A stretch of DNA of 64,000 bases, taken from positions 3,642,322-3,706,321 of the forward strand of contig NZ_CP036273.1 of assembly GCF_007747215.1 (NCBI RefSeq). Reading direction: 5' to 3'. Of this stretch, positions 4,367-60,103 are shown in pieces; the stretch's first letter is position 1; each line of letters opens with the position of its first letter. The notes beneath the pieces were generated by a model. The model saw only the letters and a program-made list of their open reading frames with translations. It had not been told where the DNA came from and did not search any database. Position numbers and translations under genes: made by a program. Source of the DNA: Urbifossiella limnaea. Its GTDB lineage: Bacteria; Planctomycetota; Planctomycetia; Gemmatales; Gemmataceae.

Positions 4367-4370
4367 ATAC

Positions 4371-4487
4371 GGGTTGGCCGCAAAAAAGCACAAAATACAC
4401 AAAATTGATCAGACATAAATTAGGAAATTTATTCTGATTGCAATTTGTTCTTATTTTGTGTCTTTTGTGCCTTTTTGCGGCCAACCC
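4371..4487. repeat. 117-bp AT-rich imperfect palindrome in a convergent gene gap
   Basis: Outer arms 4371-4405 and 4453-4487 are complementary over 35 bases with two mismatches. They start with GGGTTGGCCGC and run into A/T-rich tracts of AAGCACAAAATACAC type. Inside, a second nested inverted repeat (ATCAGA..TAAATT / AAATTTA..CTGAT) brings the centre together, so nearly the whole gap can fold into one hairpin. The composition is strikingly AT-rich beside roughly 68 percent GC neighbours. It fills the gap between the converging DHS-like and DUF1501 genes, so it may act as a bidirectional terminator. It could also be a decayed non-autonomous mobile element. Confidence 0.85.
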
Positions 4488-4490
4488 GCC

Positions 4491-5979: not shown

Positions 5980-6888
5980 ATGCTGTCCGCCCCTCTCCTG
6001 CTCGCCTCACTCTTGCCGGCCCAACCCCAGACGAACCCGCCCATCGTGGCTCTCTGGGAGGGGAAGGCGCCGCACGCCGTCGGCGACAGTCTGGCCGACA
6101 AGCCGCACGTCACCGTGTTCCGCCCCGCGGCCGGGAAGGCGAACGGCACCGCCGTCGTGATCTGCCCCGGCGGCGGCTACGGCTTCCTCGCCGACGACCA
6201 CGAGGGGAAGCAGGCCGCCGAGTTCCTGAACGGCCTCGGCGTGACGGCATTCGTTCTGAAGTACCGCATCGTGGCGAAGGACCGGCCAGGCCCGCTCCAC
6301 CCGGCCCCGCTGGAGGACGCGCAGCGGGCCATCCGGCTCGTGCGGTCGAAGGCTGCGGAGTACGGGGTGAACCCGGGCCGAGTCGGCATCTGGGGGTTCT
6401 CGGCCGGCGGGCACCTGGCGAGCTCCGCGGCCACACACTTCGACGCCGGGAAGAAGGGCGACCCGATCGACGGCGCGAGCTGCCGGCCAGACTTCGCCAT
6501 CCTCGCCTACCCAGTCATCTCGATGGAGAAGGGCGTGACGCACGGCGGCAGCCGCAACAACTTGCTGGGGGCCAACCCGGACGCGAAGCTGGTCGAGCAC
6601 CTGAGCAACGACAAGCAGGTGACGAAGGACACGCCGCCGACGTTCCTCTTCCACACGAGCGAGGACAAGTCCGTGTTGGCCGACAACCCGGTACGGTTCT
6701 ACCTGGCGTGCAAGGCGGCGGGGGTGCCGTGCGAGCTCCACATCTACGAGAAGGGCCGCCACGGCGTCGGGCTCGGCCGCGACCCGAAGTGGACCGGCGG
6801 CGAGCCGTCGGTGGCGACGTGGCCGGACCGGCTCGCGGAGTGGATGCGCTCGCGCGGACTGCTCGTCGCCGCGCCTCTGCCGAAATGA
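5980..6888 (+). CDS. Secreted alpha/beta hydrolase, acetyl-xylan esterase/lipase-like
   Basis: 302 residues from the ATG at 5980. The open frame extends further upstream, but only this start gives a clean signal peptide (MLSAPLLLASLLPAQP). An ATG at 5944 would add 12 polar residues. The oxyanion motif CPGGGYGFL, the nucleophile elbow GFSAGGH, the acid region TSEDKSVLADN and the His in GRHGVGLG are all present, giving a complete Ser-Asp-His triad of the BD-FAE/Axe type. A periplasmic carbohydrate de-esterification role is plausible from the family; the substrate is unknown. The stop codon lies inside the left arm of the inverted repeat that follows. Confidence 0.88.
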   Translation: MLSAPLLLASLLPAQPQTNPPIVALWEGKAPHAVGDSLADKPHVTVFRPAAGKANGTAVVICPGGGYGFLADDHEGKQAAEFLNGLGVTAFVLKYRIVAKDRPGPLHPAPLEDAQRAIRLVRSKAAEYGVNPGRVGIWGFSAGGHLASSAATHFDAGKKGDPIDGASCRPDFAILAYPVISMEKGVTHGGSRNNLLGANPDAKLVEHLSNDKQVTKDTPPTFLFHTSEDKSVLADNPVRFYLACKAAGVPCELHIYEKGRHGVGLGRDPKWTGGEPSVATWPDRLAEWMRSRGLLVAAPLPK

Positions 6889-6973
6889 CCGAATCCCAGT
6901 GACCCACCAATGACCAAGGGGAGAATGCAATCGTCTTCCTTGGTCATTGGTGGGTCACTGGGATTTGGTCATT
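6884..6973. repeat. 36-bp inverted repeat spanning the esterase stop codon
   Basis: Arms 6884-6919 and 6938-6973 are complementary over 36 bases with one mismatch, and the loop is 18 bases. Each arm contains AATGACC twice, flanking CCCAGTGACCCACC. The left arm includes the TGA of the esterase at 6886-6888. There is no T-run after the stem, so a simple intrinsic terminator is not obvious. It sits between two co-directional genes, 62 bases before the ABC ATPase start, where an RNA hairpin could limit read-through or protect the 3' end. Confidence 0.85.
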
Positions 6974-10076: not shown

Positions 10077-10094
10077 GCCGACTCGATCCGGGCG

Positions 10095-10124
10095 AAGCCC
10101 ACCGGTTGCAACCGGTGGGCTTTT
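10095..10124 (+). terminator. Intrinsic terminator after the TIGR03000 gene (repeat family copy 1)
   Basis: A perfect 28-base palindrome, AAGCCCACCGGTTG and its complement, at 10095-10122, followed by TT. It starts 18 bases after the stop codon. A nearly identical hairpin, with the flank CCGGGCG also conserved, occurs at 60050-60077 on the other strand. Confidence 0.8.
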
Positions 10125-15413: not shown

Positions 15414-15489
15414 CGAGCGGCCCGCGTGAGCGGGCTGTTCCAGAGCGGTTCGATGTGCTCAGGAACAGCCCGCTCACGCGGGCCGCTCG
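15414..15489. repeat. Palindromic intercistronic repeat, copy 1
   Basis: Arms 15414-15441 and 15462-15489 are perfect complements over 28 bases with a 20-base loop. The arm core GGCCCGCGTGAGCGGGCTGT recurs in both arms of the element at 23719-23797. It sits 13 bases after one stop codon and 26 bases before the bioB start. Confidence 0.92.
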
Positions 15490-23718: not shown

Positions 23719-23797
23719 GCGGGCGGCCCGCGTGAGCGGGCTGTTACGTCGGCGCCTCGAGCAGCGACGTAACAGCCCGCTCACGCGGGCCGCCCGC
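23719..23797. repeat. Palindromic intercistronic repeat, copy 2
   Basis: Arms 23719-23751 and 23765-23797 are perfect complements over 33 bases, with a 13-base loop. The arms share the 20-base core GGCCCGCGTGAGCGGGCTGT with the element at 15414-15489. It lies 6 bases after the typA stop and 21 bases before the methyltransferase start, the same placement as copy 1. Confidence 0.93.
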
Positions 23798-25788: not shown

Positions 25789-26277
25789 ATGGACCTGTAC
25801 CTCATCCGACACACCGACGCCGGCGACCGCCGGCAGTGGGAGGGCGACGACGCCGAGCGGCCGCTGACCGAACTGGGCCGCGGTCAGGCACGGGCGCTGG
25901 GGGCGGCGTTCCAGGCCCGTGGTATCGCCGTCGGAGCGATCCTGACCAGCCCGCTGACGCGGACCGTGCAGACCGCAGGCGAGTTCAACGAGGCGCTCGT
26001 CGGCAGCCCCGGCCCGACCGCGTGCGACCTGCTCGCGCCCGACGAGCTCCGCAAGCGGAAACTCACGAAGTTGATCGCCGGCCTCGGCGCGACTTCGGTG
26101 GCGGTGGTCGGCCACGAGCCCGACCTGTCCGCGTACCTGGGGTGGCTACTGGGGATCGACTCGGACAACGTGCCGCTGGAGAAGGGCGGGGTGGCGAAGG
26201 TCTCGTTCGAGGACGAACCTGCGAAGGGCGAGGGCGTCCTCGGTTGGATGCTCACCCCGGCGTGGTACGGTGCCTGA
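25789..26277 (+). CDS. sixA: Phosphohistidine phosphatase SixA-like (histidine phosphatase superfamily)
   Basis: 162 residues from ATG. The catalytic motif YLIRHTDAGDR places the nucleophilic His at residue 8, and the second His is in VVGHEPDLSAYLGWLLG. Short length, the RHxx start and the GHEP motif fit SixA, which in E. coli removes phosphate from a histidine of ArcB or of the nitrogen PTS. The physiological partner here is unknown. Followed by an AT-rich repeat element in the convergent gap. Confidence 0.88.
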   Translation: MDLYLIRHTDAGDRRQWEGDDAERPLTELGRGQARALGAAFQARGIAVGAILTSPLTRTVQTAGEFNEALVGSPGPTACDLLAPDELRKRKLTKLIAGLGATSVAVVGHEPDLSAYLGWLLGIDSDNVPLEKGGVAKVSFEDEPAKGEGVLGWMLTPAWYGA

Positions 26278-26352
26278 ACCGAAGTGTTGCCGCAAAGGCA
26301 GCCAGGAGTTGAGGTTCCGCACGATGACCACCGCACTTTGATCAGACATATA

Positions 26353-26396
26353 TTTGTGTATTTGACTCAATGCGTGCCACGACCCCCTGGGGGGGT
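26353..26396 (+). repeat. 44-bp convergent-gap repeat element, copy A
   Basis: This stretch matches the reverse complement of 34967-35010 at 40 of 44 positions. It consists of an AT-rich half with TTGACTCAAT and a GC-rich half ending in CGACCCCCTGGGGGGGT, which forms a hairpin with flanking GTGCC/GGCAC. Just upstream, TTGATCAGACATA at 26338-26350 is also found inside the palindrome at 4371-4487. The element lies between the converging sixA gene and the gene at 26427. Confidence 0.88.
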
Positions 26397-26426
26397 ACGA
26401 GGCACACATCGTGAGCCACTGATCTG

Positions 26427-27314
26427 TCACTTGGCGTTCATCCCCTTCTGTGCCCACGCCCGCCACGCCGCCTCGACCTCCGGCGCCTTCCAGCCGACGG
26501 ACTCCAGTGCCTTCGCCGGCTCCGGGACGTCGCCGTTCTCGTCCGGCCGCAGTGCCCCGACGAAGCGCACGAACTTCTCCTGCCCCATCTTGTCGGTGCC
26601 GAACGCCAGGTAGTCGACGAAGGCGGTGGCGATCAGTTCGGCGTCGGGGCGGTCGTTGGCCCACAACTCGCCGAGCGTGACCGGGCCACGCCCCTTGCCG
26701 AGGACGGCGCCGCGGGCGGCCGTCTTGTACGCGGTGAGGCGCTTGCCGCTCGGGCCATCGGCCCGGAGGCTGGCGGCGCGGCCGTAGCCGCTGCGGAGCC
26801 ACGCGGGCACCGGCGTGTTCGGCCCGGCCTTCGACTGGAGGTACGCCGCCCCGATCGCCGGCCCGATGTCGCCGACGAACTCGGCGTCGGTCGCCTTCGG
26901 GTTAGTCTCGACACCGATGGCCGCCACCGGCTCGTCGCCGCGGACCGACACCACCACGCCGGTGTCGGTGCGATCGCCGAGCACGAGGCGGAGGAAGTTG
27001 CCGTAAGCCCGCCGGTCGGGGACGTGGTAGACGGCAAGTTTTCCTTTCCAGGCTTCTTCCTTCTCGCCGTACTGAAGCCCCTTGCGGGCGGTCTTGGCGG
27101 TCTTCTCCAGCGCCTCGGCCACGGCCTTTGCCCGCGCCTCCGGGAGCGGCGACGCCAGGAGCAGCGTTGCCGATTCGACGACGGTGTACCCCTTCAATTC
27201 GCCCTTCTTGAGGTTCTCGGCGACGGCTGCCTTCTGCGTATCGGTCGCGTCCTGGGCCGAGGAAAGCGACGCGGCGAGTAGGAACAGTGCGGCGGAAGGG
27301 GCGAGGCGCGGCAT
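26427..27314 (-). CDS. Secreted protein of unknown function
   Basis: 295 residues from the ATG at 27314; the open frame extends upstream, but only this start gives a signal peptide (MPRLAPSAALFLLAASLSSAQ). The mature part is mostly helical, with VAVYHVPDRR-like alternation: YHVPDRRAYGNFLRL, an AIGVETN segment and FVDYLAFGTDKMGQEKFVRFV. The layout loosely resembles peptidase-MA-like proteins, but no HExxH is present, so no enzymatic role is claimed. Divergent from the DUF255 gene with 87 bases between starts, so the two may share regulation. Confidence 0.72.
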   Translation of the reverse strand: MPRLAPSAALFLLAASLSSAQDATDTQKAAVAENLKKGELKGYTVVESATLLLASPLPEARAKAVAEALEKTAKTARKGLQYGEKEEAWKGKLAVYHVPDRRAYGNFLRLVLGDRTDTGVVVSVRGDEPVAAIGVETNPKATDAEFVGDIGPAIGAAYLQSKAGPNTPVPAWLRSGYGRAASLRADGPSGKRLTAYKTAARGAVLGKGRGPVTLGELWANDRPDAELIATAFVDYLAFGTDKMGQEKFVRFVGALRPDENGDVPEPAKALESVGWKAPEVEAAWRAWAQKGMNAK

Positions 27315-34021: not shown

Positions 34022-34927
34022 ATGGTGTTCGGCTGGTTCAAGCGCGGGCTCGCCAAGACGGCCGGCGTGTTCGGCGGCGTCCTCGACGTGCTCCGCCGCA
34101 AGGGGAAGGTCGATCAGGCGTTTCTCGACGAACTCGAGAAGCAGCTGTACCGCGCCGACCTGGGTACGACCGCAACCGCGACGATCATCGACCGCGTCCG
34201 CCAGGGCTTCCGCGACAAGGAGGTCGGCGAGGAGGTGTCGGCGTTCGTCCGCAAGCAACTCCGCGACCTGCTCGCCTCCGACTCGCCCGGACTGGCCTAC
34301 GCCGCGTCCGGGCCGACGATCGTGATGGTCGCGGGCGTCAACGGCTCGGGCAAGACCACGTCGATCGCCAAGCTCGCCAACAGGCTCAAGAAGGACGGCA
34401 AGAACGTGGCCGTGGCCGCGTGCGACACCTTCCGCGCCGCGGCCATCGAGCAACTGACGGTGTGGGCCGGCCGCATCGGCTGCGACATCATCAAGCAAGG
34501 CCAGAATGTGCAGCCGGCGGCGGTCGCGCACGACGCCTGCGAGGCGGCCAAGGCCCGCGGGTACGACGTGCTCGTCGTCGACACCGCCGGCCGGCTCCAC
34601 ACGCAGACGCACCTGATGAAGGAGCTGGAAAAGATTCACACCGTGGTGAGCCGGCAGATACCCGGGGCGCCGCACGAGGTGCTGCTCGTGCTCGACGCCT
34701 CGAACGGGCAGAACGCCGTTGTGCAGGCCGAGCAGTTCTCGAAGTCCGTGAAGTGCAGCGGCATCATCCTGTCGAAGCTCGACGGCTCGGCGAAGGGCGG
34801 GGCGGTCTTCGCCATCAAGCAGAAGCTCGGCCTGCCGGTGAAGTACGTCGGCGTCGGCGAGGGGCTCGACGACCTGGAGCCGTTCGACCCCGACGCCTTC
34901 GTCGCGGCGCTGTTCGACAAGGGGTGA
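34022..34927 (+). CDS. ftsY: Signal recognition particle receptor FtsY
   Basis: 301 residues from ATG. A short N domain (KVDQAFLDELEKQLYRADLG) leads to the SRP-type GTPase: P-loop GVNGSGKTTSIAKLA, insertion box DTFRAAAIEQL, DTAGRLHTQTHLMKEL, TKxD-like SKLDGSAKGG and the closing GVGEGLDDLEPFDPDAFVAALF. The acidic A domain of E. coli FtsY is absent; membrane contact would come from the N-terminal amphipathic segment (MVFGWFKRGLAKTAGVFGGV). FtsY docks ribosome-SRP complexes at the translocon. Confidence 0.98.
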   Translation: MVFGWFKRGLAKTAGVFGGVLDVLRRKGKVDQAFLDELEKQLYRADLGTTATATIIDRVRQGFRDKEVGEEVSAFVRKQLRDLLASDSPGLAYAASGPTIVMVAGVNGSGKTTSIAKLANRLKKDGKNVAVAACDTFRAAAIEQLTVWAGRIGCDIIKQGQNVQPAAVAHDACEAAKARGYDVLVVDTAGRLHTQTHLMKELEKIHTVVSRQIPGAPHEVLLVLDASNGQNAVVQAEQFSKSVKCSGIILSKLDGSAKGGAVFAIKQKLGLPVKYVGVGEGLDDLEPFDPDAFVAALFDKG

Positions 34928-34966
34928 GTCGGCGAACATTCGGGCCGGGTTCATTGTGTGTACGGC

Positions 34967-35010
34967 ACCCCCCCAGGGGGTCGAGGCACGAATTGAGTCA
35001 ATGACACAAA
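34967..35010 (-). repeat. 44-bp convergent-gap repeat element, copy B
   Basis: Reverse complement of the element at 26353-26396 with four mismatches. It again carries TTGACTCAAT and CGACCCCCTGGGGGGGT (read on the minus strand), with an AT-rich flank (AGTATATGATAA on the plus strand). It lies between the converging ftsY and rny genes, matching the setting of copy A. Confidence 0.88.
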
Positions 35011-35071
35011 AGTATATGATAACGACGCCGCCCGACGTGAGGCCCGCTGCAAGCCAGCCCCACGTCAGAGT

Positions 35072-36676
35072 TTACTTCGCCACCTCGACGGCCCGCGTCT
35101 CGCGGATCACGGTCACGCGGATCTCGCCGGGGTAGTCCAACTGCTGCTCGATGGCGCGGGCGATGTCGCGCGACAGCTTCACCGCCTCGGCGTCCGTCGT
35201 TTGCCCGGCGTTGGCGATGACGCGGAGCTCGCGGCCGGCCTGGATCGCGTAGGCGTGCTCGACCACCGGGAAACCCATCGCCACCGCCTCCAGATTCTCC
35301 AGCCGCTTCACGTACTTTTCCAACGACTCCCGCCGCGCCCCCGGGCGGCTGGCGCTGATCGCGTCTGCGGCCGCCACCAGCACCGTGTAAATGTTGTCCA
35401 CCGTCACGTCGTCGTGGTGGCCTACGATGGCGTGCAGCACCTCCTTGCTCGTCTCGCCGTAGCGGCGGGCGAGCTCGGCGCCGACCTTCGGGTGGCCGCC
35501 CTCCATCTCGTGGTCGGCTGCCTTCCCCACGTCGTGCAGTAACCCGCAGCGACGTGCCAGCTGCGGGTTCAGGCCGAGTTCGCCGGCCATCAGTCCGCAC
35601 AGGTGGGCGACTTCCAGCGAGTGCTGGAGGACGTTCTGGCTGTAGCTCGTGCGGAACTTGAGGCGGCCGAGCAGGTGCAGCAGCTTCTCGTGCGGCTCGG
35701 GAACGTCCGCCTCAATGACCGCGGCCCGGCCGGTCTCGGTGACGTGCTTCTCCATCTCGGCCTGCGTCTCGGTCACCACCTCTTCGATCCGCGTCGGGTG
35801 GATGCGGCCGTCGGCGATGAGCTTGGCCAGGGCGAGCCGGGCCGTCTCGCGGCGGACGTTGTCGAACGCCGACACGATCACCACGCCGGGCGTGTCGTCC
35901 ACGATCACGTCCACGCCGGTGGCCTTCTCGAAGGCCCGGATGTTCCGCCCCTCGCGGCCGATGATGCGGCCCTTGATGTCGTCGGACGGGATGTCCACCG
36001 TGCTCACGGTCGTGTCGGCGGTGTGGTCGGCGGCGAAGCGCTGGATGGCCGTGGCGAGCACCTCGCGGGCCTTCGCCTCGGCCTGCTGGCGGATCCGCTC
36101 CTCGTGCTGGCGGATGCGGGCGGCGGCCTCCTCGGCCAGCTCGCGGTCGAGCCGGTCGAGCAGCATCCGCTCCGCCTCCTCGCGTGACATGCCACTCAGC
36201 TGCTGAAGCGTGCGCGTCTGCTCGGTGGCAAGATCGTCCAGTTGCTTGGCCTTCTCCTGGAGGCGCTCCTTGCGCTCGGAGAGCTTTTTCTGCACCGATT
36301 CGAGTTGCCGCTCCTTGCGGGCCAGCTCGCGGGCCTTCTGCTCCGCGGCGTCCTCCCGCTTCTCGGCGCGGCGCTCCAGCTCGCGCACCTCGCCGCGGGC
36401 CTGGTCCAGCTCGCGCGTCAGCTCGTCGCGGCGCCGGCCGGCCTCGTCGCGCGCCCGCGCCTCGGCCTCGCGGACGATGCCGTCGGCCTCCTGCCGGCCC
36501 CGCTCGACCAGCTCTCGCGCCCGGTTCTCGGCCTGACGCGTTTCCTCTTGCAGGCGGGCGGCTTCCATCACGGACAGCGACGGGCCGCGGCCGAGGGTGC
36601 GGACGGTGACATACGTGAGCGCGGCGCCGGCGGCGGCCGCTCCGGCGGCCAGCCCGGCGGCGAGTTCGGGTTCCAT
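35072..36676 (-). CDS. rny: Ribonuclease Y
   Basis: 534 residues from the ATG at 36676; the frame opens at 36994, but the extra part is unrelated. An Ala-rich membrane anchor lies at about residues 4-24. A long charged coiled coil runs to about residue 200. The KH domain has [24 protein letters not shown], and the HD domain has [30 protein letters not shown] with the metal-binding His-Asp pair. The C-terminus [16 protein letters not shown] is typical. RNase Y initiates mRNA decay as a membrane-bound endonuclease. A candidate promoter lies about 155 bases upstream. Confidence 0.97.
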
Positions 36677-37046
36677 GGGAACGGTCCTTCCCGCGTGTCG
36701 GCCGGGCCGATCGGGCGGGGGTCTGTCGCGGGTGAGGTCGGGTATGCAAGCCGCCGTCCGGGCGGCCGGTCGGCACAACGGCCGGCCGGAACCCGCCCGG
36801 TCGTCCGTGGGGGGCGGGATGTTGGCATTATGCGGACGTGCGAATCCGTTCGCAACCGGCTTCGCCGGCTCTGGCAACGGCCACGGACGCGCCACAACCG
36901 GCTCTTTTTTGGCCACCGGGGCGAGTTCTGTGACGGCCCCGTGAAGGTTCGTTGAAAGGGCTGTTGCCCACCTTTTGGGAGCCCGCCGGGGCAAGTATCT
37001 CTGACGTGCGGGAGTCGCCCGCGACCGGATATGCTGAGGGCTGCAC
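36677..37046. other. 370-base divergent intergenic region between rny and the DUF1559 genes
   Basis: No open frame with coding character was found here. It contains small GC hairpins (AACCGGCTTCGCCGG near 36853) and one candidate promoter for rny. Towards 37047 the sequence becomes slightly more A/T-rich (GCAAGTATCT, GGATATGCTGAGGG), where the DUF1559 promoter and leader should lie. No riboswitch-like structure was recognised. Confidence 0.6.
36827..36855 (-). promoter_or_regulatory. Candidate promoter of rny
   Basis: On the minus strand TTGCGA (36850-36855) and CATAAT (36827-36832) are separated by exactly 17 bases, about 150 bases upstream of the rny ATG. Pattern evidence only, and it implies a long 5' leader. 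Confidence 0.4.
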
Positions 37047-60006: not shown

Positions 60007-60049
60007 GGGTTCAGCTCCGGGAGGGTGGGGCGAGGGTGATTAAAGCAGA

Positions 60050-60077
60050 AAGCCCACCCGTTGCAACGGGTGGGCTT
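60050..60077 (-). terminator. Terminator of the VIT/VWA gene (repeat family copy 2)
   Basis: A perfect 28-base palindrome (AAGCCCACCCGTTG and complement). Read on the minus strand, it follows the stop at 60104 and is followed by TCTGCTTT. Relative to 10095-10122 one base pair is swapped, G-C to C-G, in both arms, and the CCGGGCG flank is shared. Confidence 0.8.
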
Positions 60078-60103
60078 CGCCCGGCAGGCTGGAACGGCCG
60101 GTG

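Follow-up and report, generated by a model that had tools for sequence, protein, structure and literature searches.

Genus-limited family of structured intergenic repeats of about 96 bp in the genome of Urbifossiella limnaea

Introduction

Small interspersed repeats have been well studied in Proteobacteria and in pneumococcus. The REP elements of the GTAG and CGTC superfamilies are single hairpins of 20-40 bp, mostly arranged in dimers, with a GTAG or CGTC tag that stays unpaired at one of their ends, and typically lie <20 bp from the 3' ends of ORFs (Di Nocera et al., 2013; PMC3733652), and the RAYT genes are described as always flanked by two inverted REPs (PMC2817692). Concerning ERIC/IRU and the other bacterial MITEs, most listed families have terminal inverted repeats and several show a target duplication or a terminal TA (Delihas, 2007; PMC2229807). 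The CIR repeats of Caulobacter are about 110 bp long, with two stem-loop arms and a linker, harbor GANTC and are not intragenic, while the highly conserved RUP of pneumococcus has terminal repeats in common with an IS of its host genome (PMC2229807). REPs have been reported from Planctomycetes in general; our literature search found no described repeat family of this kind for the relatives of Gemmata.

Here we present two inverted copies of a repeat from U. limnaea, located in a stretch of 64,000 nt (hereafter the window; positions 3642322-3706321 of the 7.80-Mb single-contig genome G000). They are members of a dispersed, genus-limited family of structured repeats of about 96 bp. We class the family as new, although of the familiar MITE/REP kind of small, interspersed and structured repeats; it is not a strict REP, a terminator or an Rfam family. 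Like REPs, it is intergenic and palindromic, has many copies with an often species-limited occurrence and lies near the 3' ends of ORFs. Unlike them, it is a 96-bp monomer with two hairpins and occupies divergent gaps in background numbers, and the CGTCG at one of its ends is about 30 nt off the stem, so that it does not qualify as a REP tag. With ERIC/IRU and the MITEs it shares a size in the range of about 100-200 bp, dispersal in gaps, a stable long stem-loop and filled/empty sites, but clear terminal repeats, target duplication and terminal TA were not found and the long stem is internal instead of terminal. The likeness to CIR, as far as the published description goes, extends to the similar length, the two arms, the GANTC of main-family copies and the intergenic position; in contrast to CIR, GANTC is not kept in diverged members, the host phylum is unrelated and the family is found in this genus only. 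Finally, RUP (about 100 copies) is likewise a non-coding intergenic repeat of roughly 100 bp, although no corresponding IS was found here and the mean identity of the copies is only 69%. The family combines a clear, covariation-supported fold and a likely reading strand with empty sites and an occurrence in several species, which makes it testable whether such a repeat is a parasite, an RNA signal or both.

Results

Extent and Copy Number

The original prediction had noticed that 40 of 44 bases agree between 26353-26396 and the reverse complement of 34967-35010, each piece lying between two genes that end toward each other. Both observations were borne out: the match is 40/44, the runner-up in the window reaching only 25, and the strands of the flanking genes are convergent in both cases. 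Copy 1 lies between sixA (as named in the original prediction; 25789-26277, plus strand) and a gene at 26427-27314 (minus strand), whose product has no Pfam match and which reads into the element in sense. Copy 2 lies between ftsY (34022-34927, plus strand), which also reads into it in sense, and rny (35072-36994, minus strand). A 35-base consensus matched twice in the window (0 expected from 100 shuffles), and the element pair ranked first among the inverted pairs in a repeat search of the window (61 nt, 82%).

The 44-bp pieces are real, but their limits proved too short. Genome-wide, the 35-base consensus was matched 46 times and a 24-base core 58 times, compared with 0 and 1 for the reversed control. 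In an alignment of the 58 copies, conservation sets in about 28 bases ahead of GACTCAAT, extends 66 bases past it and is low outside these limits, and the covariance model of the resulting 96-bp unit detected 65 genome copies at E < 2e-6, both window copies included. Copy 1 spans 26336-26431 with the minus strand as the folding strand (80.6 bits with model R1 and 83 bits with R2), and its 5' end, in the RNA sense, overlaps the stop codon of the gene at 26427-27314. Copy 2 spans 34932-35027 on the plus strand (R1 99.8 bits, R2 94.3 bits) and begins 4 nt past the ftsY stop codon (34925-34927). A broader model additionally found a diverged copy at 118232-118326 (L138) and another (L331) in 794 kb sampled at random from the genome, and the true copy number is probably somewhat above 65.

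The copies are 69% identical on average and the closest pair 94%, which gives no sign of a recent burst. Just one of the 58 aligned copies overlaps a predicted gene. Copies are mildly denser near the contig ends (Rayleigh p ~0.02). Five of the six closest pairs (the 3.9- and 13-kb pairs excepted), that of the window included, are in plus/minus order, 7-11 kb apart. Two other copies (L017 and L027) lie within a duplication of about 750 bp, whose two parts are 75% identical and each carry the element.

Fold and Strand

The element folds into a 13-bp stem (H1) with a G+C-rich apical hairpin, followed by a second, weaker hairpin (H2). In copy 2, the R2 alignment places the 5' arm of H1 (TTCATTGTGTGTA) at 34950-34962, the 3' arm (GGCACGAATTGAG) at 34985-34997 and the apical CCCCC/GGGGG hairpin at 34968-34980, all on the plus strand; the apical hairpin is missing or substituted in some diverged members. 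The H2 region with its conserved CACAAAA loop (helix 3 of the alignments) is found at 35003-35015, plus strand. Its partner side is degenerate in copy 2 and H2 is clearer in relatives. For copy 1, on the minus strand, the 3' arm of H1 lies at 26366-26378 (plus-strand CTCAATGCGTGCC; R2 fold and pair counts) and the partly degenerate 5' arm at 26401-26413 (plus-strand GGCACACATCGTG; R2 and folding). What had been described as a TTGACTCAAT half joined to a C/G hairpin half is in reality a strand-specific fold, in which CTCA(A/T)TGCGTGCC forms one arm of the long stem.

It is the diverged copies that reveal the stem, GTGCC/GGCAC being replaced by TTCTC/GAGAA or by GTCT/AGAC. In an alignment of 35 sequences (A2), changes on both sides were counted in 12 of 23 pairs (32 cells), a value as high in none of 500 shuffles, and sliding the partner abolished most of the pairing; helix 3 is weaker, with 59% of its cells paired. 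Among 13 diverged members from three species (A4), the 13-bp stem alone has 18 both-side cells, again equaled by 0/500 shuffles, but since kinship alone can lift sequences above shuffles, such pair counts are to be read as support and not as a probability. Two stem columns carry A-C in 93 cells on the strand used in the original prediction, that is G-U on the opposite one, and core folding gave a mean z of -3.74 on the folding strand vs. -1.95 on the other. Both observations identify the minus strand for copy 1 and the plus strand for copy 2 as the folding strand. The U-run of an intrinsic terminator was not seen, as no T-run lies beyond the hairpin on either strand of the 58-copy alignment. 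Rfam gave no gathering match within the window, and when four loci were searched permissively, no match fell on the element.

Gene Context

Gene context was assigned with a simple codon-based gene finder, by which 56 copies were classifiable. Convergent gaps hold 10 of these, divergent gaps 17 and co-directional gaps 29, numbers near the background of gaps of 100-600 bp in the random 794-kb sample (24, 68, and 110, respectively), so convergent gaps are hardly enriched.

The position of the 5' end is more particular. Where the 5' neighbor reads toward the element in sense, its stop codon falls within -10 to 15 bp of the element's 5' end in 17 of 21 cases (median 8), compared with equally near antisense stops at the far side in just 8 of 28 (Fisher p = 0.0004); the element limits used here are those of the conserved span, with a few bases' uncertainty either way. 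This corresponds to the position of REPs, <20 bp from 3' ends. In congeners, stop-to-element spacings of -4, 5, 5, and 10 bp were recorded, the second 5 belonging to a weaker match (L288). A 5' neighbor that reads away has its start at a median of 80 bp.

Ten neighboring genes were scanned and belong to unrelated families or to no family, on which ground a regulon was rejected. A role as a promoter part was rejected as well: in the scan of most copies, -10-like sites occur downstream at variable distances, with no fixed spacing.

Distribution among Related Species

The exact core was not found in 84,980 genomes, in viral contigs or in five congeners. By-eye alignments of orthologous gaps were no better than shuffles, and model searches and position tests were used instead. 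In the nearest congener (G089, FtsY 93% identical) 34 orthologous loci were compared, some of which, belonging to gene families such as the DUF1501 genes, may be paralogues. The models detected a full-length element at one of the 34, after surE (L270:1954-2048, E 7e-5), at the same place as a copy of G000 (L053); the stem letters of the two differ yet pair. Three G089 sites are clean and short, namely ftsY-rny, L028 and L016, and thus represent empty orthologues of filled sites. Specifically, the ftsY-rny gap measures 150 bp in G000 vs. about 26 bp, element-free, in G089. Weak remnants were recognized at three further orthologous G089 sites (L177, L263, and L193); in 513 kb the right-end motif has just two occurrences, which lie at the orthologous sites L177 and L263. 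The remnants and the full-length copy after surE indicate that some sites predate the split of the two species. Most copies would have been either gained in G000 or lost in G089, as judged from these comparisons.

The structured model R2 found up to four relatives in G089, one of which (L118) was part of the model, and two in a second congener, G091. With model R3, L284 and L287 of G089 and L282 and L285 of G091 score well, all four being members of its training set. The relatives in both congeners have different stem letters with pairing kept. For another genus (G021), the last model gave only matches at E 0.14-0.21, which are not convincing, and a search for the right-end motif across the genus returned mostly coding matches. 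Convincing diverged relatives were found in two congeners only.

Ends and Candidate Transposases

A scan of the copies for target-site duplications of 2-10 bp revealed no clearly enriched offset pair, and neither perfect nor good terminal inverted repeats were found at the element ends. The ends CGTCGCTC and CGACGTTC agree at 6 of 8 bases, and some copies weakly match the model on the opposite strand. At the L028 site, comparison of G000 with G089 (L172) showed that about 20 bp of the 3' end of the next gene recur, diverged, beyond the inserted stretch, which resembles a long target duplication.

Three Y1_Tnp genes (PF01797) are present in the genome, none of them with copies on both sides. 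The diverged copy L138 (L138:4233-4327) lies 78 bp from the strongest one (~118405-118851, minus strand, product of 148 aa), on one side only, and a second Y1_Tnp gene is about 1.3 kb from a copy. The start of the L138 copy overlaps the stop codon of a transporter-like gene.

Discussion

The reading that we favor, at a probability of roughly 0.58, is that of small non-autonomous structured repeats, limited to the genus, probably mobile and tolerated or perhaps used in 3' UTRs. The element would be small, mobile and non-autonomous, of the same type as REP, ERIC and CIR, and would owe its spread to a putative enzyme recognizing both the strand that folds and the conserved ends, GACGTTCGGGCCG ... 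TTGGAGCGACG. These ends, together with a fold confined to one strand, suggest that it is recognized in folded, single-stranded form, as REP sequences and the ends of IS200/IS605 are. Copies would survive where nothing is broken, chiefly right after a stop codon or right upstream of a promoter, and sense transcription would place the hairpin in the 3' UTR of the preceding gene. A small mobile element persisting in harmless gaps had already been considered in the original prediction, and part of this holds, as the family is dispersed, almost always intergenic, genus-limited and without a counterpart in most orthologous gaps of G089; IS-type terminal inverted repeats, target duplication and a partner transposase, however, were not found. 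Other observations run against this reading as well. None of the three Y1_Tnp genes has copies on both sides, the identities among copies give no sign of a recent burst, L270 and the remnant sites show that some sites are older than the species split, and the strict 5' anchoring exceeds what harmless insertion predicts. Placement after stop codons could reflect target choice, tolerance, or use of the hairpin in the 3' UTR.

The main rival is a cis-acting 3'-UTR RNA element, in which hairpins transcribed in sense just past the stop codon would protect or process the end of the mRNA, or block read-through and divergent antisense transcription, and in which copies are maintained by selection and not by transposition. 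It draws on the strand-specific covariation, on the stop-codon spacing, which is similar in congeners, and on the full-length relative after surE in G089, which has different stem letters and stands where G000 has a copy. Use in the 3' UTR would account for the constraint on pairing and for the surE site common to both species; it does not account for the 35 of 56 copies whose 5' gene reads away, where no host mRNA enters in sense. Most sites, moreover, are not common to the nearest congener, the hairpin is without a U-tract and the scanned neighbors are unrelated, and we consider this explanation possible but unlikely. An intermediate form, with structured 3'-UTR RNA signals special to the genus that were spread by transposition and are now used by the cell, is also unlikely, and a little more so; it can point to stems that vary under a pairing constraint and to a 5' end that, in several species, lies no more than a few bases from stop codons.

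The favored reading, that of probably mobile non-autonomous repeats, can also be narrowed to repeats moved specifically by a Y1 transposase of the IS200/IS605 type, in the manner of REPs and RAYTs. Recognition of a folded single strand and the lack of a target duplication fit that family, and two Y1_Tnp genes have copies nearby. Unlike at RAYT genes, though, the copy is on one side only, and with three Y1 genes and at least 65 copies such proximity may be due to chance, which leaves this route doubtful.

We regard it as very unlikely that the repeat is a DNA-binding or methylation site organizing the chromosome, like the GANTC-bearing CIR repeats (PMC2229807), with GACTC as the methylated site. 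GACTC is present in nearly all main-family copies, the length of about 100 bp and the two arms are as in CIR, and copies are in mild excess near the contig ends; but several diverged copies (CACTC, AGCTC, GGCTC) and most congener relatives have lost GANTC and retain the stem, the conserved part is the stem arm CTCA(A/T)TG, and GANTC is common regardless (2.25 per kb in the window). A link to CcrM through GANTC is weak.

Least probable of all is the bidirectional 3'-end element, or terminator between convergent genes, of the original prediction, which could rely on the setting of both window copies and 10 of 56 genome-wide and on a G+C-rich hairpin, but which fails, by the original prediction's own test, on the near-background numbers in divergent and co-directional gaps and is contradicted by directionality, with one strand alone folding well and no T-run on either side. 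What survives from it is that the 5' end of the element sits at the stop codon of any gene reading in.

Other Repeats in the Window

The window holds further inverted repeats. Those at 23719-23797 and 15414-15489 are 33 bp long, perfect or almost so, have AACAGCCCGCTCACGCGGGC in common and represent another palindromic family. A 36-bp pair (CCGGGCGAAGCCCACCGGTTGCAACCGGTGGGCTTT) at 10088-10123 and 60049-60084 is 94% complementary and itself palindromic. Finally, long inverted repeats with short loops and 36-bp arms, 94-97% matching, are located at 6884-6973 and 4370-4488.
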